A DNA stretch of 40,653 bases, taken from positions 1 to 40,653 of the forward strand of contig JABSSR010000034.1 of assembly GCA_013213965.1 (NCBI GenBank). Reading direction: 5' to 3'. Position 1 is the first letter of the stretch. Every line of letters begins with the position of its first letter. A program made the translations under genes and the position numbers. This stretch comes from Verrucomicrobiales bacterium (GTDB lineage: Bacteria > Verrucomicrobiota > Verrucomicrobiia > Verrucomicrobiales > DEV007). Below, piece after piece: positions 7,021-34,158 of the stretch. The notes beneath the pieces are model-generated. The model saw only the letters and a list, made by a program, of their open reading frames with translations. It did not search any database and was not told where the DNA came from.

Positions 7021-7992
7021 TTGAAAGGAACCTGTAATTTTAAGGATACTCTTGCCAGAGAAGGAATCCAACTCAGCCGACAAGATCCTCAGATCCTGCA
7101 ATTAAACCTTGGCAAGTTATGTAATTTAACCTGCTCGCACTGTCATGTAAATGCTGGACCTCATCGAAAAGAAGTCATGCAATCCGATACAGTTACCAAA
7201 ATTCTGGATTGGTTTTCAATGACCAATATCCCAACACTTGACCTCACGGGAGGCACACCGGAAATGATTCCTGACTTTCGTAGGATAGTTGAAGAAGTAA
7301 ATAATTTACAGACTCCTCGAAAGATCATTGACAGACTTAACGCCACTATCATTGAGGAGCCGGGTTACGAATGGGTCGCTGAATTCCTTGCCAGGAATGA
7401 GGTTGAAATTATTGCCTCGATGCCCTGCTACGGACCAGAGAACGTGGAAAAACAACGAGGGAATGGAGTGTTTGAAAAAAGCATAACTGCTTTTCAAAAA
7501 TTAAACAGGCTAGGTTACGGGTCAGATCCAAGGCTAAAGATCCACTTCGTTTATAATCCTTCCGGCGATTTTCTGCCACCGGACCAAGCAGGCCTTGAAG
7601 AACAATACAAGATAATGATGAAGGAGCATTTTCAAATCAAATTCGATCAGCTTTACTGTATCACAAATATGCCGATTGCTCGATTTGCCAGTTGGCTCAA
7701 AAGAGAAGGTCGGCTCAATGATTACAACTCACTTTTAAAAGATGCCTTCAATCCTGAAACCATTGACGGGCTAATGTGCAGGGACACAATTAACGTTAAT
7801 TGGCTCGGTGAAGTTTTTGATTGCGACTTTAACCAAATGCTGAACTTACCTACATATAATAAAAAAGATTCAATCAAAGTATGGGAAATTAATCTAAAAG
7901 AATTATCTAATGCGCCTATCAGAACAGCTACTCATTGCTTTGGATGCACTGCGGGTTCCGGCAGCTCCTGCGGAGGCTCATTATTAGATTGA
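7021..7992 (+). CDS. arsS: ArsS-like radical SAM protein (arsenosugar biosynthesis family, Cys form)
   Basis: TTG start. Radical SAM CxxxCxxC in 'LQLNLGKLCNLTCSHCHVNAGPHRKEVM', 'LDLTGGTPEM', and Cys-rich C-terminus 'CFGCTAGSGSSCGGSLLD', characteristic of this family. Confidence 0.8.
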   Translation: MKGTCNFKDTLAREGIQLSRQDPQILQLNLGKLCNLTCSHCHVNAGPHRKEVMQSDTVTKILDWFSMTNIPTLDLTGGTPEMIPDFRRIVEEVNNLQTPRKIIDRLNATIIEEPGYEWVAEFLARNEVEIIASMPCYGPENVEKQRGNGVFEKSITAFQKLNRLGYGSDPRLKIHFVYNPSGDFLPPDQAGLEEQYKIMMKEHFQIKFDQLYCITNMPIARFASWLKREGRLNDYNSLLKDAFNPETIDGLMCRDTINVNWLGEVFDCDFNQMLNLPTYNKKDSIKVWEINLKELSNAPIRTATHCFGCTAGSGSSCGGSLLD

Positions 7993-22177: not shown

Positions 22178-23131
22178 CTATCCAATACCAAAACGGAAAG
22201 GATCGGAAGGATCAATCATAATATTGGTCTCTCCGTTGACCCATGCTCGGCCACTTACTGTTGGAATTACTTTTTGATCTTCCAATGGTTCCACTTCCCC
22301 CTCAAAGATAGTTCCTAAAATACCACTCTGCCTCCAAATCTGACCCGGTTTCAATTTTCCAGAAGTATGCAAGCAAGCTAACTTGGCACTAGTGCCGGTA
22401 CCACAAGGAGATCGGTCATATTCTCCTCCCGGACACATTACAAAATTACTGGAATCTGATTTCAAAGAATCAGCAGGAGGACCAAAGATTTCAACGTGAT
22501 CAATTTTACTGCCATCATCACCAAAGACATTGGCAACCTCAAGAGCCTCCATTGCAGCGATCGAAAATGAACTTAATTCATTTAAGTTACTTAATTTAAT
22601 TTCTGGTCCGTAACCTTCGATAAGATAAAACCAATTACCTCCCCAGGCAACATCTCCTAAAACTTTCCCAAATCCTTTCACCTCAATTTCAACATTGCTC
22701 AGATAACGATAGCTAGGAACATTCGTCACACTCACAGAACCATCCGGTTTCAGTTCAGCCTTTATCATTCCGACCGGCGTCTCAATGTAATGGGTTCCAG
22801 TTGAAATACGGCCCATGAATTCAAGAGTCTTAATCAGCCCCATGGTCCCATGAATGCACCCCTTCAATACACCTGAATTATTAAAGAAAATAACACCTGC
22901 AACACACTTCGTATCAACAGGCTCACAAAGCAAAGCCCCCACCATTGCTTTAAATCCTCTAGGTTCGCTTAATAAAGCAGTTCTCAACCAATGAGCTTTT
23001 TCTTCAAACCGATCTCGAAGGTCTGTCATATTTCCTGTTCCAAGATCAGGTGCACCACCAACAACGACTCGGGTCGGCTCACCAGCAGTATGCGAATCAA
23101 TAACTTTGATCTTGTTAGTATCCATGGACAT
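22178..23131 (-). CDS. Proline racemase superfamily, 4-hydroxyproline 2-epimerase-like
   Basis: 'IDSHTAGEPTRVVVGG'. Both catalytic cysteines appear present: 'LKGCIHGTMGLIKTLE' and 'YDRSPCGTGTSAKLACL'. Confidence 0.88.
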   Translation of the reverse strand: MSMDTNKIKVIDSHTAGEPTRVVVGGAPDLGTGNMTDLRDRFEEKAHWLRTALLSEPRGFKAMVGALLCEPVDTKCVAGVIFFNNSGVLKGCIHGTMGLIKTLEFMGRISTGTHYIETPVGMIKAELKPDGSVSVTNVPSYRYLSNVEIEVKGFGKVLGDVAWGGNWFYLIEGYGPEIKLSNLNELSSFSIAAMEALEVANVFGDDGSKIDHVEIFGPPADSLKSDSSNFVMCPGGEYDRSPCGTGTSAKLACLHTSGKLKPGQIWRQSGILGTIFEGEVEPLEDQKVIPTVSGRAWVNGETNIMIDPSDPFRFGIG

Positions 23132-23203
23132 TAATGTATTTCCTAATAACTCTTAAGGCGCCGAGAGTCCAGCACGCACAAACATTAAATTAATTCATAT
23201 CAT

Positions 23204-24505
23204 CTAAGAAAAGCGCCCTGGAAACAACGCGTCTAAAGGTAATTCGTTATATTCATTACAAAGTATATTTGCCATGAGGTGACCAGTTATTGGACCAAGG
23301 CTCAAACCCATCATTGCATGGCCAGTTGCAATAAAAACACCTTCCGCACCTTGCCCGGCCGGACCAATGTATGGCAACCCATCAGGCGAACAGGGCCTAA
23401 GACCAGACCATCTCTTGATACCATTAAAATGGTCGACTTTGAACTGAGGAAAGTAATTGGGAATTGACTTTAGAATACCCTTAACGCGACGAGCATTTAT
23501 GGATAAATCGTTATCACCTAATTCCATAGTTCCTGCAAAACGTAAAGAATCACCCATCGGAGTCACTGCGACACGAGCCTCATTAAGAATAGAACAAACG
23601 CGTGGTAATTGCACAGGTTCTGGCACAGTCATTGAATAACCCTTACCAGCTAGGATCGGAAGATCTAGTCCCAAATCACAAGCCAGAGATGATGACCATG
23701 CGCCTCCCGCAATAACAAATTGATCCGCTTCGACATTATCACTTGAGGATTCATTTTCTCCCAAATTAATACAACGCAAAGCCTTGGCCTGGCCATTCTC
23801 CATAACAAAACCATCAGCACAGACTTGATGGTGTATTTCTGCTCCCATTCCAAGAATTTTTTCTCTCAGCTGATTTAAAAAGATACTAGGATCCAAATGG
23901 CAATCCTGTTTGAACCAAACGCCTCCTTCTACATCCATTTCAATGTCTGGATCAATCTCGGCTAATCTTCTCGAGTCACATACTTCTACTTCAAGACCAA
24001 GGTCATTAGCATCCAATGCTAGACTCGATTCTTCTTCAAGTGCATCAGGCCCTTTGCAAAGCATTAATAGCCCCTTCTTAACCAATTCATAAGAACCGTC
24101 CTTTGCAAGTTCGACAAAGAGCTGTCTGCTCTTCAAATTTAAATCACACAAAAGCTCACGATTATGTATGACATGATTCTTATTCGCTGAACGCCAAAAC
24201 AAATACAACCAACGCATTAATTTTCTGTTCGGTCGTAAACGAATCGCAAAAGGACTTTCGGAACTAAGCATCCATCGAAGTCCCAAAGCTATCATTCCAG
24301 GCGCGGCAAGAGGAACAAAATGACTTGGCACAACCATACCGGCATTCTCTGCAGAACAATTATCACCTTCTTCGGGCTCTCTTTCCAAAAGAACAACTTT
24401 TTTACCAGCTTTCAACGCATAGTAAGCAACACAAAGCCCAATGACTCCTCCTCCAACAATCACGACTCTGTGCTTGTCTTGAAAATTATTTGGAGAGAGA
24501 GACAT
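23204..24505 (-). CDS. FAD-dependent D-amino acid oxidase/dehydrogenase family (DadA-like; candidate D-hydroxyproline dehydrogenase)
   Basis: Rossmann 'VVIVGGGVIGLCVAYYALKAGKKVVLLERE', 'AENAGMVVPSHFVPLAAPGM', C-terminal 'WSGLRPCSPDGLPYIGPAGQGAEGVFIATGHAMMGLSLGPITGHLMANIL'. Adjacent to the epimerase-like gene. Confidence 0.87.
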   Translation of the reverse strand: MSLSPNNFQDKHRVVIVGGGVIGLCVAYYALKAGKKVVLLEREPEEGDNCSAENAGMVVPSHFVPLAAPGMIALGLRWMLSSESPFAIRLRPNRKLMRWLYLFWRSANKNHVIHNRELLCDLNLKSRQLFVELAKDGSYELVKKGLLMLCKGPDALEEESSLALDANDLGLEVEVCDSRRLAEIDPDIEMDVEGGVWFKQDCHLDPSIFLNQLREKILGMGAEIHHQVCADGFVMENGQAKALRCINLGENESSSDNVEADQFVIAGGAWSSSLACDLGLDLPILAGKGYSMTVPEPVQLPRVCSILNEARVAVTPMGDSLRFAGTMELGDNDLSINARRVKGILKSIPNYFPQFKVDHFNGIKRWSGLRPCSPDGLPYIGPAGQGAEGVFIATGHAMMGLSLGPITGHLMANILCNEYNELPLDALFPGRFS

Positions 24506-26262: not shown

Positions 26263-29200
26263 ATGAATCATCCTCCCAAGTGTTATCGGACGATAATATT
26301 GTTATGCTGCTCGATTTTATTTTTAATTTCTAGAGTCTTCTCAGCTCCAATTATTAATGAGTTCGTAGCTCTTAATAAATCAACGCTTTACGATGAGGAC
26401 GGGCAATCATCAGATTGGATCGAAATACACAATCCACACCAAGACACCGTTGATCTTGAAGGATACTTCCTTACGAATGACCCGGAAGATTTGAAGAAAT
26501 GGAAGTTTCCAAAGGTCTCACTTGCTGTTGATGCATATTTAATCGTGTTCGCATCAGGCAAGGATCGTGACAATGGAGAACTTCACACAAACTTTAGAAT
26601 TTCAAAATCTGGGGGATATCTTGGCCTAGTGGATCCTGACGGCAAAACCGTCGTTTCTGAATTATCTGAGTTCCCAGTCCAATTCGAAGATTTCTCATAT
26701 GGCATAAAAACGGACGGGGAAAGCTTTTCAACTACACTAGTTAGGGAAGGAGATGCTTGTAAATTATTAGTGCCCACCAATGACATCGGAACTACTTGGC
26801 ACTCTCTTAATTACAATGATGAAACCTGGTCCGATGCCACGACAGGAATTGGATATGAGCGATCGAGCGGGTACGAAAATCTGATAGGCGCTGGCGGTGA
26901 TATTGAAGAACAAACTTATAATGAAAACTCTACTGCTTATATTCGAATTCCCTTTTCCATCAATTCATTGGATGGACTGTCCAGTCTTACATTTCGAATG
27001 AAATACGACGATGGATTTATTGCATATATCAACGGTACAGAAATCGCTTCAGGAAATAAGCCTGCATCACCTGCCTGGAACTCAGACGCTAGCACAGATC
27101 ATCCTGACAGCCAGGCAACCTCGTTCGTCGATACGGACCTGTCCGCACAAGCTTCAGAGATTGTCCGGACAGGTAACAACCTATTAGCAATCCATGTAAT
27201 GAATGGTGACACGGGAAGTTCTGATCTGCTCGCTCTTCCTCGCCTCGAAGCTCAGTTCGTCATAAAACCTGATGAAGGAGCTGAACCAAAACCACCTGAA
27301 TTAGGATATTTTCAAACTCCAAGCCCAAATAAAAACAATGGATCCGATTCGGGCCTACCTTCCGGACCGGTTTTAATTTCTCAACCTGGTCGAGGCTTCA
27401 CCGGAAACTTAACTTTAAGTTTAACCACAACATCACCTCAAGCACAAATCCGATACACGACTAACGGTTCATTACCGACAGAAGTATCACCTCTTTACAC
27501 GGGCAGCACTATCACCCTCGGAAATTCAACACTACTGCGTGCCCGCTCCTTCGAGGAGGGCTTGACAGCAGGACCAGTATCAGAGTCTGGTTATATAAGA
27601 CTATCAACAGACGCCCAAAACTTCAGTTCTGACCTTCCGGTAATTATTATGGAACGGTTCTCAAATGGTGGCACTACAGCAGCTAATGGTAAAACCTTTA
27701 CTTTCTTTGCATTCTTTGAACCTGATCCACAAACAGGGAGAACACGACTCAACGGACCCTACTCCATCGGTACACGAGGAGGATGGAAAGTAAGAGGATC
27801 ATCATCCACAGGATTTAGTAAAAAAGCATTCTCCATTGAGGCATGGAACGAATTGAACCGAAATAAAAACATCTCACCGCTAGGGCTCCCGGAAGAATCG
27901 GATTTCATTCTAAATGCACGATCAGTATACGATCGCAGTCTAATGAGAAATGCATTTATTTATGAACTCAGTAATCAGGTCGGAAGATATGCGGTAAGAA
28001 CAAAATTCGTAGAACTTTTCAAAGATGATAACGGTGGAAATCTAAGTTATAGCAATGATTATGATGGGGTCTATACGTTCATGGAAAAGATCTCGCGTGA
28101 CAAAGAACGTGTCGATGTCGAAAGACTTACTGAAAATGTATCTGAGGAGCCCGGGATCACTGGAGGATACATTCTTAAAGTCGACCGCCTTGATCCGGGT
28201 GATTCTGGCTTGCGGGCAGGCGGACAAACTCTGGGCTGGGTATATCCTAAAGAAGATGATGTCAGCACTGGTCAGTCAAACTGGGTCCGGGAATACATGA
28301 ATGAAATGAGCTCTGCTCTTAGCACTGATAAATTCGGAGACTACATTAATACCCTTTCCTGGGTAGATCATCATCTACTCAATATTTTAACACTTAATGC
28401 AGATGCATTAAGGCTCTCAACTTTCTTTCATAAAAAACGAAATGGAAAACTTGAGTATGGTCCGATATGGGACTTCGACCGCTCTATGGAATCAACGGAC
28501 GGACGCGATAATAATCCTTCAACATGGTCAGGAGGAACGTCCTATTTTACTTTCCCATGGTGGGGATCTCTATTTGATAACGAAAATTTCTGGCAAGTTT
28601 ATATAGATCGCTACTTCGAGCTTCGCGAAGGTGAATTTGCAACATCAAATGTGCATTCGATAATCGATCGTATGGCAACTGGACTCAATGAAGCTCAGGC
28701 AAGAAATTTCCGAAGATGGTCAGACCAGCCCCGTTTTGGCAGCTTTCAGGGAGAAGTTAATCATCTCAAGGACTGGCTAGGAACCCGGCTCGATTGGATG
28801 GACGGACAATTTGCACCAAGGCCAACAACAAATAAAACAGCAGGAGCTTATCCACCAGGCACAAAAATTACACTGAATGCAAATCTGGCAGGGAATCAGA
28901 ATATTTATTACACCCTTGATGGAAGCGATCCTCGACCACCTGATCAATCGGATCCATTGGATGGAACTACCATTATCGATGAAGATATCCCTGTCCGAGC
29001 ATTGGTGCCAAACTCCGACATTGGTTTATTATGGTACAGGGACTTAAACTTCAATGACGGGTCCTGGATGCAAGGAACTAACGGCGTGGGTTATGAAAGG
29101 AGCAATGGTTATGATCCATACATCAACATAGACGTTGATGATGAAATGAGTGGAAGAACTTCTTGCTATATCAGAATTAAATTCAATCTAACTCAAACCG

Positions 29201-31470
29201 ATATTGAAAAGTGGAACTACATGATCCTTCAAATGCGATACGATGACGGATTCGTGGCTTACCTGAATGGAACACGAATCGCATCTGCTCAGGCCCCTGG
29301 AAATCTTACCTGGAATTCATCAGCCACTCAAACACATGATGACGGATCAGCCACGCTATTTCAAAAGTTCGACACCAGCAATTTTATCAACCAGCTCAAA
29401 TCGGGCCAAAACCTACTCGCCATACACGCACTGAACGAAAGCACCTCAAGTAGTGACTTTCTAAATCAAGCTAAGCTAATCACTGGATTTGATGAAGGGG
29501 CTGGAGAAGGAGGCACTAACGGTTTCAAGTACACTGAACCAATCACTCTTCAAAAAACAGTACGAATCTTCGCTCGAGTCTTTGACAGTGATGGTGGAAA
29601 CTCTACCAGTTCAGGACAGACCCCAGTAGGCACTGGCTGGAGCGCACCCCTCAAAGTCGAATATCTAGTCAATGAGGATCCAGCCTCAGCCACTAATCTT
29701 GTGATTACAGAAATAATGTATGATCCTTATGAGTTCGCAGGACCAGAAACAAATAACAGTGCTTTCGAATGGATCGAACTGCAAAACACTTCATCGAATC
29801 CCATATCACTTACCGGTGTAAACTTCAATGACGGCATCGAATTCACTTTTCCAGGATTAACCCTCGAACCCAAACAAAGTACCGTCATCGTCGGGAACCT
29901 TGAAGAATTTGAAAAAATTTATGGTACTAATACAAACTATTTAATAGCAGGAGAATTTTCTGGAGCACTTGATAACGGAGGCGAGGACATACAACTAATC
30001 ACGGCCGGCGGAGAAATCATCCAGACAATTTCCTATCCTGACAACATTGCAAATGAAGGGCATTCACTTGTCCTAGGATTAGATGGATGGCGCCAAAGTA
30101 GGACTCTTCTTGGTTCTCCCGGCATCAAAGAACTAACCGAATTTGAACTACCAAATATTTTCATTAACGAAGTATTAAGTAATTCAGTGCTACCCCAAGT
30201 GGACACGATAGAATTATACAACCCTAATCCTTTTCCAGTTAACATCTCAGGATGGCTACTCACGGACAACCTTCGGGATCAGCTTAAATTTAAGATACCT
30301 GATGGCACTGAATTACCTGAGAATGGCTATTCGGTTTTCACTGAAAATGATTTCGAAAATTTTGCACTAGATTCATTCGGGGAAGAGGTCTTTCTAATTG
30401 CAAACAATTTAAACGATCAAAGACTAGGTTACGTTGACGGATTCAAGTTCGGAGACTCCGCGTCTGGATTCTCTCTGGGCAGGCACGTAACCTCTGATGG
30501 AAAGATCCGCTACGAACCGATGTCTACTCAGACATTTGGGTCTGCAAATTCCGATCCCGTATCAGGTCCTCTCATAATCACTGAATTAATGTATCACCCT
30601 GAAAATGATAATACGGAATACATCGAAATTAAGAACATAGGATCCTCACCATTTAACCTTCAAGGCACCGGGATTAGCGGGATAGACTATCAATTTGAGG
30701 ACCCAGGTCCTACGCTCGCTCCTGGAGACACTCTACTAGTCGTTAAAGAAGACCCAACAATCTTCCGCAATAACTACAGTGTTCCCGAAAAGGTAGAAAT
30801 TTATGGACCCTTCGTTGGATCCTTAGATAATGGAGGTGAACGAATCAGAATAAGAATTCCAGAAAAGTCTACAATAAATGGTGAACCTGATCTGAAAGTA
30901 TCTATTGATATCGCTGAATACTCAGATCAAGACCCATGGCCAGCTTCTGCAGATGGCCTAGGAAGCTCATTACATAGGACAGATCCTATCAATTATGCCG
31001 GAGATCCAACCAGCTGGAAAGCTGCGGCCCCTTCCCCAGGAATAACAAATAATGATGCGTTCGATTGGAGAGAGCTATTTTTTAGTCCTGAAGAAATTAG
31101 CAATAATGCACTATCGGGCCCCCTCGCAGACGCGGATGCGGATGGCATTGCAAACATACTCGAGTATCTACTTGGTAGTGATCCAAGAAAATCTGAATCA
31201 AGAATATTTAAGGAATTTATGCGACAAGAACGAGCCAATGAAACTGGTAAGTTCGAACTCAAAATTAAGCGTTTAAAAAATATTATAGGGTACGAAATAA
31301 TTATTGAAAGTTCTACTGATCTGATTAATTGGATCGCGCCCACTGAGCAATTAATCTTAAAGGAAGAATCAGACAACGGGGACGGGACTGTCACTATAAC
31401 GTATTCAACATCCAATCCGTTAACTTCTAGAAAAATCTACTTTCGGATAAGAGCTGTTGAATCACCTTGA
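26263..31470 (+). CDS. Very large secreted multidomain protein: CotH-like kinase domain, multiple lamin-tail domains, chitobiase-C-like repeats, duplicated beta-sandwich module, TSP3/dockerin-like C-terminal segment
   Basis: Signal-like N-terminus. LTD motifs 'PIINEFVALNKSTLYDEDGQSSDWIEIHNP', 'LVITEIMYDPYEF...FEWIELQNTS', 'IFINEVLSN...DTIELYNPN', 'LIITELMYHPENDNTEYIEIKNIG'. CotH 'YDRSLMRNAFIYELSNQVG...YDGVYTFMEKISRDKERVDVE...YGPIWDFDRSM'. 'IRYTTNGSLPTEVSPLY' and 'IYYTLDGSDPRPPD'. C-terminal 'DADADGIANILEYLLGSDP'. Confidence 0.9.
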   Translation: MNHPPKCYRTIILLCCSILFLISRVFSAPIINEFVALNKSTLYDEDGQSSDWIEIHNPHQDTVDLEGYFLTNDPEDLKKWKFPKVSLAVDAYLIVFASGKDRDNGELHTNFRISKSGGYLGLVDPDGKTVVSELSEFPVQFEDFSYGIKTDGESFSTTLVREGDACKLLVPTNDIGTTWHSLNYNDETWSDATTGIGYERSSGYENLIGAGGDIEEQTYNENSTAYIRIPFSINSLDGLSSLTFRMKYDDGFIAYINGTEIASGNKPASPAWNSDASTDHPDSQATSFVDTDLSAQASEIVRTGNNLLAIHVMNGDTGSSDLLALPRLEAQFVIKPDEGAEPKPPELGYFQTPSPNKNNGSDSGLPSGPVLISQPGRGFTGNLTLSLTTTSPQAQIRYTTNGSLPTEVSPLYTGSTITLGNSTLLRARSFEEGLTAGPVSESGYIRLSTDAQNFSSDLPVIIMERFSNGGTTAANGKTFTFFAFFEPDPQTGRTRLNGPYSIGTRGGWKVRGSSSTGFSKKAFSIEAWNELNRNKNISPLGLPEESDFILNARSVYDRSLMRNAFIYELSNQVGRYAVRTKFVELFKDDNGGNLSYSNDYDGVYTFMEKISRDKERVDVERLTENVSEEPGITGGYILKVDRLDPGDSGLRAGGQTLGWVYPKEDDVSTGQSNWVREYMNEMSSALSTDKFGDYINTLSWVDHHLLNILTLNADALRLSTFFHKKRNGKLEYGPIWDFDRSMESTDGRDNNPSTWSGGTSYFTFPWWGSLFDNENFWQVYIDRYFELREGEFATSNVHSIIDRMATGLNEAQARNFRRWSDQPRFGSFQGEVNHLKDWLGTRLDWMDGQFAPRPTTNKTAGAYPPGTKITLNANLAGNQNIYYTLDGSDPRPPDQSDPLDGTTIIDEDIPVRALVPNSDIGLLWYRDLNFNDGSWMQGTNGVGYERSNGYDPYINIDVDDEMSGRTSCYIRIKFNLTQTDIEKWNYMILQMRYDDGFVAYLNGTRIASAQAPGNLTWNSSATQTHDDGSATLFQKFDTSNFINQLKSGQNLLAIHALNESTSSSDFLNQAKLITGFDEGAGEGGTNGFKYTEPITLQKTVRIFARVFDSDGGNSTSSGQTPVGTGWSAPLKVEYLVNEDPASATNLVITEIMYDPYEFAGPETNNSAFEWIELQNTSSNPISLTGVNFNDGIEFTFPGLTLEPKQSTVIVGNLEEFEKIYGTNTNYLIAGEFSGALDNGGEDIQLITAGGEIIQTISYPDNIANEGHSLVLGLDGWRQSRTLLGSPGIKELTEFELPNIFINEVLSNSVLPQVDTIELYNPNPFPVNISGWLLTDNLRDQLKFKIPDGTELPENGYSVFTENDFENFALDSFGEEVFLIANNLNDQRLGYVDGFKFGDSASGFSLGRHVTSDGKIRYEPMSTQTFGSANSDPVSGPLIITELMYHPENDNTEYIEIKNIGSSPFNLQGTGISGIDYQFEDPGPTLAPGDTLLVVKEDPTIFRNNYSVPEKVEIYGPFVGSLDNGGERIRIRIPEKSTINGEPDLKVSIDIAEYSDQDPWPASADGLGSSLHRTDPINYAGDPTSWKAAAPSPGITNNDAFDWRELFFSPEEISNNALSGPLADADADGIANILEYLLGSDPRKSESRIFKEFMRQERANETGKFELKIKRLKNIIGYEIIIESSTDLINWIAPTEQLILKEESDNGDGTVTITYSTSNPLTSRKIYFRIRAVESP
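26761..27265 (+). repeat. Copy 1 of an internally duplicated protein module (approximate bounds)
   Basis: 'LLVPTNDIGTTWHSLNYNDETWSDATTGIGYERSSGYENLI...RIPFSI...LTFRMKYDDGFIAYINGTEIASGNKPASPAWNSDA...NNLLAIHVMN'. Confidence 0.8.
29005..29490 (+). repeat. Copy 2 of the internally duplicated protein module (approximate bounds)
   Basis: 'ALVPNSDIGLLWYRDLNFNDGSWMQGTNGVGYERSNGYDPYI...RIKFNL...LQMRYDDGFVAYLNGTRIASAQAPGNLTWNSSA...QNLLAIHALN' aligns with copy 1. Confidence 0.8.
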
Positions 31471-33377
31471 TGAGATTCCCAAATAGCTAAGAACTCTTTT
31501 GCTTGATCAGGATCATTCAAAGTAACACCTTCTCCTTTGTATTTTTCCTTTCGTTGAATACTAAAATAAGCCCATCCATTAGGGTTAAGTTTTTTTTGTA
31601 ATTCGAGTGCCACCCTTCCCATTGTCATCCGGACATTTAATTCTACAACATGCCTCAACATGAGCCTTCCCTGATCATCACGCCAGACCAAAGCATCAAC
31701 TCCAACTGGACCGGAATATCCTGGCAACAGCTTTAATATGGCTGATGGTATCCTTTCATTATACCAGGAAATAAAATCAGCTTCCTTGAACAAAAATTCT
31801 GAAACCTCTGGACTGAGCATCTTGCTAAATCTTGGAGCCAACCTTATCCCTCTGAACTGTCCCCTAGAATCATTAATAAGCTGAGTCATTCCTAGACATT
31901 CAATCTCTCCATTTTGTATTTCATACAAAACTGAAAAATCCTCAACCCTCTGCAAAAAGGGTTCAGAGACAATAAATCCATGCAACTGGATCTTCTTCTC
32001 AGCCCATACTTGCACTTCTTTAGAAAAAGATTTTGCAATCATATGCCCTTTTCCCGAACAGCCATAAGCAGATTTGAAGAGAATTGTATTTCCTCTCAAA
32101 ATATCCATGACTTCGCCCAGATTTCTGCAAAATCCACCTACCACATCTCGAACACCTAGCCTTTCCTCAAGACTGACACCAATTTCTTTAGACAGCCAAA
32201 CCTCTGGAATCGGCTCTCTCCATTGCCAAGGCACCCGATCCGATACCGTCTTCGCATACGGTTTTAAGAAGTCAGAAGCATCTGCCGACCATGCCCATGG
32301 CCGTAACCCTCCAAGCTTGCGATCATCCATATCATGACGGGACAATACTTCAGGCAATTGAAGCCCCATACTTTGTAGTTTCTCTAAATGCCCCAATGAA
32401 GGAACATTACGAAACAACGCGACATCATCTTTCCGACTCCACGCAAGCATTAAAATTTCCAAGTCCTCCTCAATCGCCCGTTCAAACCGATTAGCACGGA
32501 ACTCGATCCCGTTCACTAAGGCAAGAGAATACAGTTCCGCATTTGGGTTAAACCAGTGCACGACAGGAGTCCTTCCCCTCGACTGACCAGAAATCTTCAT
32601 CTGAGAAATAAATTCCTCATTAAAACCTGCATCAAGACGTCCCTCTGAATTAAATGGAACCATTCCCTTTGCTCTGGAAGGTGATAATGGAAAGTGTAAA
32701 GAACTACTAAATGCTTCCCAATCAGAATGATCTTTCTTTTTCCAATGCCGTAACCATTTGAGGCCATGACCAACGTGGTTAATCTCGTCTTGATATATTT
32801 TGTCCAATACTACAGCAGTACCAGTGTCTCCAATGACTCGAAACTGTTCAGCATAATACTTTGAATAGTCCAAATTGGCCTGCTCAAAGATTAGATTCAT
32901 TCGAACGACAAAATCCATGACCGTATCCATTGAAGAAACGACACGCCAAAAATAATCATTCAGCGGCAATTCTCCAAAAGAAACACCACAATCATGCATA
33001 CGTCTAAGATACATCTGCGTGTGCATCTGTTCTTCACGCATCGCTTCATAAACGCCAGCACGATAATTTTTAGGAGCTTCAGGAAATTTCAGCAAAACAA
33101 GTGCCATTAATTCCGCTGCCAAGAGTTCATGATTTGCTAAAAAATGCATCATGACTCCCCGCTCTTTATCATCAATGATCCGGTTAGAACCAGGAAAATC
33201 GGCACGAATTCCACGATCGCCTACAGTCAAGTATTCTGGACGTTCAGGGAATTGAGGTGCCTTGATAGCTTTCCCGCAACAATTATCTTTAGCTCCGCGC
33301 GGACCTAGTAATAATTTATCCTCCAAAGAAGAAGAGAAAAGTATTCGTTCTGCAACTTCTCTTACATTTTCAGCCAT
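31437..33377 (-). CDS. Fusion of DUF455-like ferritin-like (diiron carboxylate) domain with a C-terminal ATP-grasp-like domain
   Basis: N-terminal helices carry E ('ANHELLAAELMAL'), ExxH ('EEQMHTQMYLRRM'), E ('NLIFEQANLDYSKYY'), ExxH ('QDEINHVGHGLKWL'). The C-terminal half carries 'TILFKSAYGCSGKGHMI' (Lys + Gly-rich loop), 'GFIVSEPFLQRVEDFSVLYEI' and 'VGVDALVW...RHVVELNVRMTMGRVALELQ' (ATP-grasp-type metal/ATP residues). Confidence 0.75.
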   Translation of the reverse strand: MAENVREVAERILFSSSLEDKLLLGPRGAKDNCCGKAIKAPQFPERPEYLTVGDRGIRADFPGSNRIIDDKERGVMMHFLANHELLAAELMALVLLKFPEAPKNYRAGVYEAMREEQMHTQMYLRRMHDCGVSFGELPLNDYFWRVVSSMDTVMDFVVRMNLIFEQANLDYSKYYAEQFRVIGDTGTAVVLDKIYQDEINHVGHGLKWLRHWKKKDHSDWEAFSSSLHFPLSPSRAKGMVPFNSEGRLDAGFNEEFISQMKISGQSRGRTPVVHWFNPNAELYSLALVNGIEFRANRFERAIEEDLEILMLAWSRKDDVALFRNVPSLGHLEKLQSMGLQLPEVLSRHDMDDRKLGGLRPWAWSADASDFLKPYAKTVSDRVPWQWREPIPEVWLSKEIGVSLEERLGVRDVVGGFCRNLGEVMDILRGNTILFKSAYGCSGKGHMIAKSFSKEVQVWAEKKIQLHGFIVSEPFLQRVEDFSVLYEIQNGEIECLGMTQLINDSRGQFRGIRLAPRFSKMLSPEVSEFLFKEADFISWYNERIPSAILKLLPGYSGPVGVDALVWRDDQGRLMLRHVVELNVRMTMGRVALELQKKLNPNGWAYFSIQRKEKYKGEGVTLNDPDQAKEFLAIWESHQGDSTALIRK

Positions 33378-33378
33378 A

Positions 33379-34158
33379 TTATAAACTCACGGGAACAGCA
33401 GAAACCGACATCACCGCATGACCATCTCTCATATCATCATTTTCAAAGTCTCCCGAAATTCTGACCTGCTGAAACCCTGCACGCTCTAACAATAATTTAA
33501 TCTCGTATTTTCCATACCATCTCAGTCGGGAAAATTTAATCTCTGAGGATTCAGTGATTCCATTATTATTGATCAACTCAAATCGATGACGAACTTCCAT
33601 TAAGTTTTCGCACCTATCTAAATCAACGCAGGAATGACATAATGCTCGGTTCTCGGAACCTTCAATTTTTTCATCCTTCTCCAAGCGCCAAACTCCATCT
33701 AAAAACTCATGCGAAATTTCATAAAAAGGAGTGAAAAGACTCATGACAAAAAGACCTTCAGGTTGTAGATGTTTTTGAAAATTCTTTAATGCTGCCAAAG
33801 CGTCATTTCGATCGTCAAGCAATTGAAAACTCCCACCAGGAACAATAATCAAATCAAAATTATTCTCACAATTAAAATTGGTCATGTCCTCCTCAATCAG
33901 ACTCGCTGAGATCCCTTCCGAAGAAAGACGCTTCCTGCATTCTTCGATCATGACATTAGAATTGTCCAAACCTGTAATTTTTATTCCTTGTTGAGCAATC
34001 GGAATAAGCACACGACCCGTTCCACAACCCACATCCAGACAATTACCTCCCGCATTCAATGCTAAATCGACATAATATCCTATCTCATCAAAATCATCAC
34101 TCCCCCGGAAAAGATCATACAATTCCGCTTCAAGTCCGGTATATTTTTTAGCTGACAT
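33379..34158 (-). CDS. Class I SAM-dependent methyltransferase, tightly coupled to the DUF455/ATP-grasp gene
   Basis: 'NCLDVGCGTGRVLIPIAQQGIKITGLDNSNVMIEECRKRL', 'FDLIIVPGGSFQLL'. The stop codon is 1 nt from the downstream ATG (TAA-T-ATG). Confidence 0.9.
   Translation of the reverse strand: MSAKKYTGLEAELYDLFRGSDDFDEIGYYVDLALNAGGNCLDVGCGTGRVLIPIAQQGIKITGLDNSNVMIEECRKRLSSEGISASLIEEDMTNFNCENNFDLIIVPGGSFQLLDDRNDALAALKNFQKHLQPEGLFVMSLFTPFYEISHEFLDGVWRLEKDEKIEGSENRALCHSCVDLDRCENLMEVRHRFELINNNGITESSEIKFSRLRWYGKYEIKLLLERAGFQQVRISGDFENDDMRDGHAVMSVSAVPVSL

Follow-up and report, generated by a model that had tools for sequence, protein, structure and literature searches.

The window analysed here, 40,653 nt of contig JABSSR010000034.1 (positions 1-40,653) from a Verrucomicrobiales bacterium, carries two adjacent minus-strand genes, one encoding a fusion of a DUF455 ferritin-like domain with a pre-ATP-grasp and ATP-grasp module and the other a class I SAM-dependent methyltransferase (Table 1). 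A sequence-only reading of this DNA had described them as a two-gene unit with a TAA-T-ATG junction, and its coordinates, strand, lengths and spacing were all exact: the methyltransferase gene lies 1 nt upstream of the fusion gene (TTA TAA T ATG GCT). Further upstream, the methyltransferase gene is divergent from a MetX-like gene, with 64 nt between them. At the opposite end of the unit, the fusion gene runs at its 3′ end for 34 nt into a convergent gene for a 1735-aa protein (26263-31470, plus strand), and this overlap is retained in the three closest relatives. The 1735-aa protein appears to be secreted and contains repeated modules, which by eye are CotH-like and lamin-tail-like. Elsewhere on the window, the gene at 7021-7992 (plus strand) encodes a radical SAM protein with a CNLTCSHCHVNAGP motif and, by eye, a likeness to the ArsS (arsenosugar-biosynthesis) family, while at 22178-24505 (minus strand) a proline-racemase-like gene adjoins a gene resembling FAD-dependent D-amino-acid dehydrogenases, suggesting, again by eye, hydroxyproline catabolism.

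Table 1. Coordinates of the fusion gene, its two modules and the adjacent methyltransferase gene in the window.
Feature	Position (nt)	Strand	Size and basis
DUF455-(pre-ATP-grasp)-ATP-grasp fusion gene	31437..33377	-	646 aa; ORF and translation
DUF455 ferritin-like domain of the fusion, residues 1-261	32595..33377	-	PF04305 match
Pre-ATP-grasp and ATP-grasp module of the fusion, residues 266-646	31440..32582	-	Foldseek; PF18604 in homologues
Class I SAM methyltransferase gene	33379..34158	-	259 aa; Methyltransf_25 match

To delineate the coding status of both genes, substitutions relative to the relative L022 were counted at codon positions 1, 2 and 3, giving 47, 26 and 116 for the fusion gene and 18, 10 and 57 for the methyltransferase gene. 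Among close relatives, position 3 varies ~4.5-6 times as often as position 2 in both genes, and this concentration of changes at third codon positions indicates that both are under coding constraint.

The N-terminal half of the fusion protein (residues 39-257) matches PF04305 (DUF455) with an E-value of 2.6e-44 and 152.1 bits, against a gathering cut-off of 34.3, and the same family was matched by 35/35 sequences in an alignment of near-full-length fusion homologues sharing 36-89% identity with the window protein. The putative diiron ligands E84, E116xxH119, E165 and E198xxH201, six residues in total, are invariant throughout this alignment. In an AlphaFold2 model of the fusion built on the 35-homologue alignment (mean pLDDT 92, pTM 0.86), the putative ligands are distributed over four long predicted helices, one set per helix (residues 70-97, 103-129, 153-181 and 185-212); this modelled four-helix spread of E, ExxH, E and ExxH is a ferritin-like arrangement. 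The DUF455 half modelled alone, from a single sequence without an alignment, gave a model too poor to use (pLDDT 44), and a profile of this half matched ribonucleotide reductase R2 subunits weakly (best E 0.0072). Of the two domains described in the sequence-only reading, the ATP-grasp fold was recognized by Foldseek with a probability of 1.00; all 50 of the Foldseek matches listed for the fusion model fall on the ATP-grasp half and none on the DUF455 half. Weak DUF455 matches in ORFs of 430-596 aa from other families represent a different group and were left out of the counts; one such ORF adjoins a gene resembling phytanoyl-CoA-dioxygenase.

Searches with the window protein alone, Pfam included, returned nothing for residues 266-646, and profiles were required to assign this half. 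Among the 35 homologues, PreAtp-grasp (PF18604) was matched by eight (best E 4.9e-7) and ATP-grasp_3 by three, while some weakly matched an MptN-type cofactor glutamate ligase. Among curated families, this half comes nearest to that of the L-aspartate--L-methionine ligase LdmS (NF047900; curated cut-off 475 bits), which was matched weakly by 6/35 homologues (best E 1.9e-6) and not by the window protein. Foldseek aligned the fusion model to the Streptomyces ATP-grasp peptide ligase 8ynd with a probability of 1.00 and an E-value of 1.2e-11, followed by PGM1 (3wvq/3wvr), SAOUHSC_02373 (7r8p/7r8q) and then biotin carboxylases and BesA, with 8yi6 also matched. Residues K397, K435, E472, D561, E579, N581 and R583 are invariant in the 35-sequence alignment; from general knowledge of ATP-grasp enzymes, we take K397 and K435 to be nucleotide-binding lysines, E472 to be the hinge acid, and D561 together with E579 and N581 (ExN) to bind Mg. 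The proposal that this protein joins a diiron (DUF455) domain to an ATP-grasp enzyme is accordingly borne out by the Pfam match, the invariant catalytic residues of both halves and the Foldseek match to ligases.

Each half of the fusion has recognizable relatives among known or stand-alone proteins. 8ynd and PGM1 are the best structural matches and share the pre-ATP-grasp domain order of the fusion, but they are only 12-16% identical and lack a ferritin-like domain; moreover, both are natural-product enzymes. SAOUHSC_02373, which we take to be LdmS, was the only PDB sequence-profile match to the full fusion alignment. LdmS has the ATP-grasp fold of the C-terminal half in common with the fusion; in contrast to the latter, it is a stand-alone enzyme, with ~13% identity to that half in a structural alignment. 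Clear homology was found with ATP-grasp proteins encoded on their own in Bacteroidales (Parabacteroides WP_122246558.1 and its kin), which are homologous to the whole C-terminal half and share its FNPxxE/D and ExNxRxxMG motifs, although they lack DUF455 and are only 20-26% identical to it. An hhalign comparison of this half with a Bacteroidales alignment free of the window sequence gave a probability of 99.9 and an E-value of 7.5e-38 at 20% identity, and the same Bacteroidales relatives scored 31 bits against NF047900 (cut-off 475). Three Bacteroidales proteins of this kind are unannotated (L161:7992-9200, L162:7998-9107 and L163:7470-8729) and lack a dedicated Pfam family scoring above cut-off. 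For the N-terminal half, the counterparts are stand-alone DUF455 proteins annotated as ferritin-like domain-containing in Sinorhizobium, Azospirillum and Neisseria (28-30% identity), which are single-domain proteins without an ATP-grasp module. The fusion has no close characterized homologue in the PDB, NCBIfam and the open-licence papers searched.

The fusion was detected in 43/57 genomes of its own and related taxa as well as in 80 or more named genome records, the best 80 matches listed being all from Verrucomicrobiota, including Haloferula, Luteolibacter, Rubritalea, Roseibacillus, Pelagicoccus, Opitutales and Chthoniobacteraceae. It was not found in the listed members of one genus of the same order (g19), occurs with ~30% identity in f44, a lineage that lies outside the class, and is patchier in a broader sample of the phylum (22 strong matches in 388 genomes). 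The fusion is, in short, a usually single-copy gene that is widespread in Verrucomicrobiota. In the phylum samples, the strong matches to DUF455 (n=14) and to the ATP-grasp half (n=5) each lay within a single frame of 648-724 aa containing both, so the halves never occur apart there; elsewhere, Proteobacteria have single-domain DUF455 proteins and Bacteroidales have proteins related to the ATP-grasp half that stand alone. No relative of the fusion was found in phage records or viral contigs, and plasmid records contained only separate halves; PADLOC did not match the fusion and returned only generic methyltransferase likeness for its neighbor. Given its exact coordinates, real domains, coding-type evolution and wide occurrence, the fusion is not a chance ORF.

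The upstream gene had been called a class I methyltransferase, and the Methyltransf_25 match (E 7e-19) identifies it as an ordinary enzyme of that class; its score against the daptide-type methyltransferase family NF041820 (88.5 bits) is below the curated cut-off of 175 bits. The two genes adjoin each other in 14 of 103 distinct fusion loci. On the fusion tree, these 14 cluster into one clade that also contains one unlinked member (G020), and the distribution of linkage requires two state changes, one gain and one loss, a number as low as which was reached in 0/500 shuffles. In G020, the methyltransferase is retained at 56% identity on a different contig from the fusion, whereas in G014 a methyltransferase remnant borders the end of a contig, ~3 kb from the fusion and separated from it by two overlapping ORFs (L051:447-2917), the first of which resembles an adenine DNA methyltransferase by eye. 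Within the linked clade, the short same-strand gap is retained at ~55% protein identity, which argues for co-transcription, but the flanking genes, among them the MetX-like and YchF genes with no obvious connection to the fusion, are equally syntenic. Linkage thus has a single origin on the tree and partly reflects general synteny.

These observations bear on whether the fusion and the methyltransferase constitute a dedicated pathway in which three activities act in sequence on one product. The 1-nt spacing here, the conserved short gap in the clade and the retention of the methyltransferase in G020 despite broken linkage are in favor of such a pathway, which is nevertheless quite improbable, considering that the genes adjoin in so few loci through one gain and one loss, that the synteny extends to other flanking genes, and that no methyltransferase relative above 42% identity was found in the remaining fusion carriers among the relatives sampled. 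Outside the linked clade, no neighbor is consistently linked to the fusion: the tight neighbors sampled are of unrelated kinds (a VIT1 transporter, a lactonase, a hexapeptide transferase and an M90 peptidase), and one lineage has a different methyltransferase downstream. Sulfatases, ABC and MoxR ATPases, aminotransferases and hydrolases were considered as partners and rejected, each occurring in few loci and none consistently. The methyltransferase is, plausibly, a lineage-specific accessory rather than a core partner of the fusion. Of the cassette proposed from the window alone, the 1-nt gap stands, and within one clade the two genes are conserved together, but a dedicated gene pair conserved across Verrucomicrobiota is not supported, since the fusion occurs in many unrelated contexts and the methyltransferase accompanies it in one clade only.

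The favored interpretation, considered to have slightly better than an even chance, is that the fusion is a bifunctional enzyme combining amide ligation by the ATP-grasp module with O2-dependent oxidation at the DUF455 diiron site, with methylation added in one clade. The ATP-grasp module, being PGM1/LdmS/BesA-like, would activate a carboxylate as an acyl-phosphate, and attack by an amine, most likely that of an amino acid, would yield a dipeptide or amino-acid conjugate. The putative carboxylate-bridged diiron site of DUF455 would use O2 to hydroxylate, desaturate or cleave either the substrate or the product of ligation. In the clade with the methyltransferase, the product or a precursor would probably be methylated by an enzyme encoded in the same apparent transcription unit. 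The two domains, the invariance of their catalytic residues, the constant pairing of the halves in the phylum samples and the clade-limited methyltransferase linkage are observations; we infer the two activities, the sequence in which they act and a small-molecule substrate. Amide ligation is suggested by the peptide and amino-acid ligases among the Foldseek neighbors and by the amino-acid ligase LdmS as the closest curated family, and bifunctionality by the invariant residues of both halves, the spread of the putative diiron ligands over four helices in a confident model and the fact that all strong matches from the phylum contain both halves together; the lack of conserved pathway neighbors and the restriction of the 50 listed Foldseek matches to the ATP-grasp half count against this interpretation. 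The fusion fits the earlier idea of combined oxidation and ligation, with an amino-acid-like substrate.

A precedent for this logic is provided by the mangotoxin cluster, in which the ATP-grasp ligases MboC and MboD act together with the diiron oxidase MboA, which makes an alkyne on a peptide; in the same study, 1447 haem-oxygenase-like oxidases were counted near an ATP-grasp ligase (PMC13185094). There, as proposed for the fusion, a diiron oxidase and ATP-grasp ligases act on one peptide, but they are encoded by separate genes of a secondary-metabolite cluster and the oxidase is haem-oxygenase-like, whereas the fusion contains DUF455 and is a broadly inherited gene. In line with the expected use of O2, COX1 is present in 13/14 fusion carriers and in 89/275 non-carriers (Fisher p 8e-6, with shared ancestry uncontrolled); no COX1 was seen in the window's own, incomplete genome (84.6%). 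In G096, one COX1 copy (G096:C3:14026-15366) reads through 10 in-frame TGA codons, while the second copy in this genome contains none; the contig may be mitochondrial DNA of a host, or the sequence may be recoded.

Alternatively, the DUF455 domain might be a noncatalytic module for metal binding, oligomerization or redox sensing that regulates or scaffolds the ATP-grasp ligase. Ferritin-like domains can store iron, an EncFtn-like family was weakly matched by 18/35 homologues (best E 0.00098), and the Bacteroidales ATP-grasp homologues work without DUF455. Yet conservation in the homologue alignment is stronger in the DUF455 half, with a mean column identity of 54% versus 38% for the ATP-grasp half, and the DUF455 half contains many invariant polar residues besides the metal ligands, which suggests catalysis and makes a purely structural or sensory role unlikely. 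Modification of a macromolecule (a protein side chain, cofactor or tRNA) rather than a small metabolite seems hardly probable: the nearest structures are small-peptide ligases, no RNA-binding or tRNA-modification domain was found, and linkage to translation genes is not conserved, even though a widely inherited gene that is usually single-copy and lies in no gene cluster has a housekeeping appearance and the weak MptN-type matches would suit a cofactor. For the tRNA modification once offered as an option, nothing supportive was found.

In the open-licence papers searched, no description of DUF455 function or of a ferritin-like/ATP-grasp fusion was found. The kinds of domain are all familiar; their combination, how widely it occurs in the phylum and its lack of any function assignment seem, from the sources searched, to have gone undescribed. 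It is possible, at somewhat less than an even chance, that the fusion represents an undescribed, self-contained "oxidase-ligase" class, with a DUF455 diiron oxidase and an amino-acid ligase on a single chain, that makes a new amide-linked metabolite of the normal physiology of O2-using Verrucomicrobiota, with clade-specific methylation. As the gene is usually present in one copy, is inherited broadly and belongs to no conserved cluster, the product of a bifunctional enzyme of this kind would probably be a general metabolite of a large and little-studied phylum. The fusion of DUF455 to an enzyme class with predictable chemistry also offers a handle on the reaction of DUF455 itself, and finding that reaction might also explain the Bacteroidales homologues in which the ATP-grasp half stands alone, some of which come from species associated with humans.
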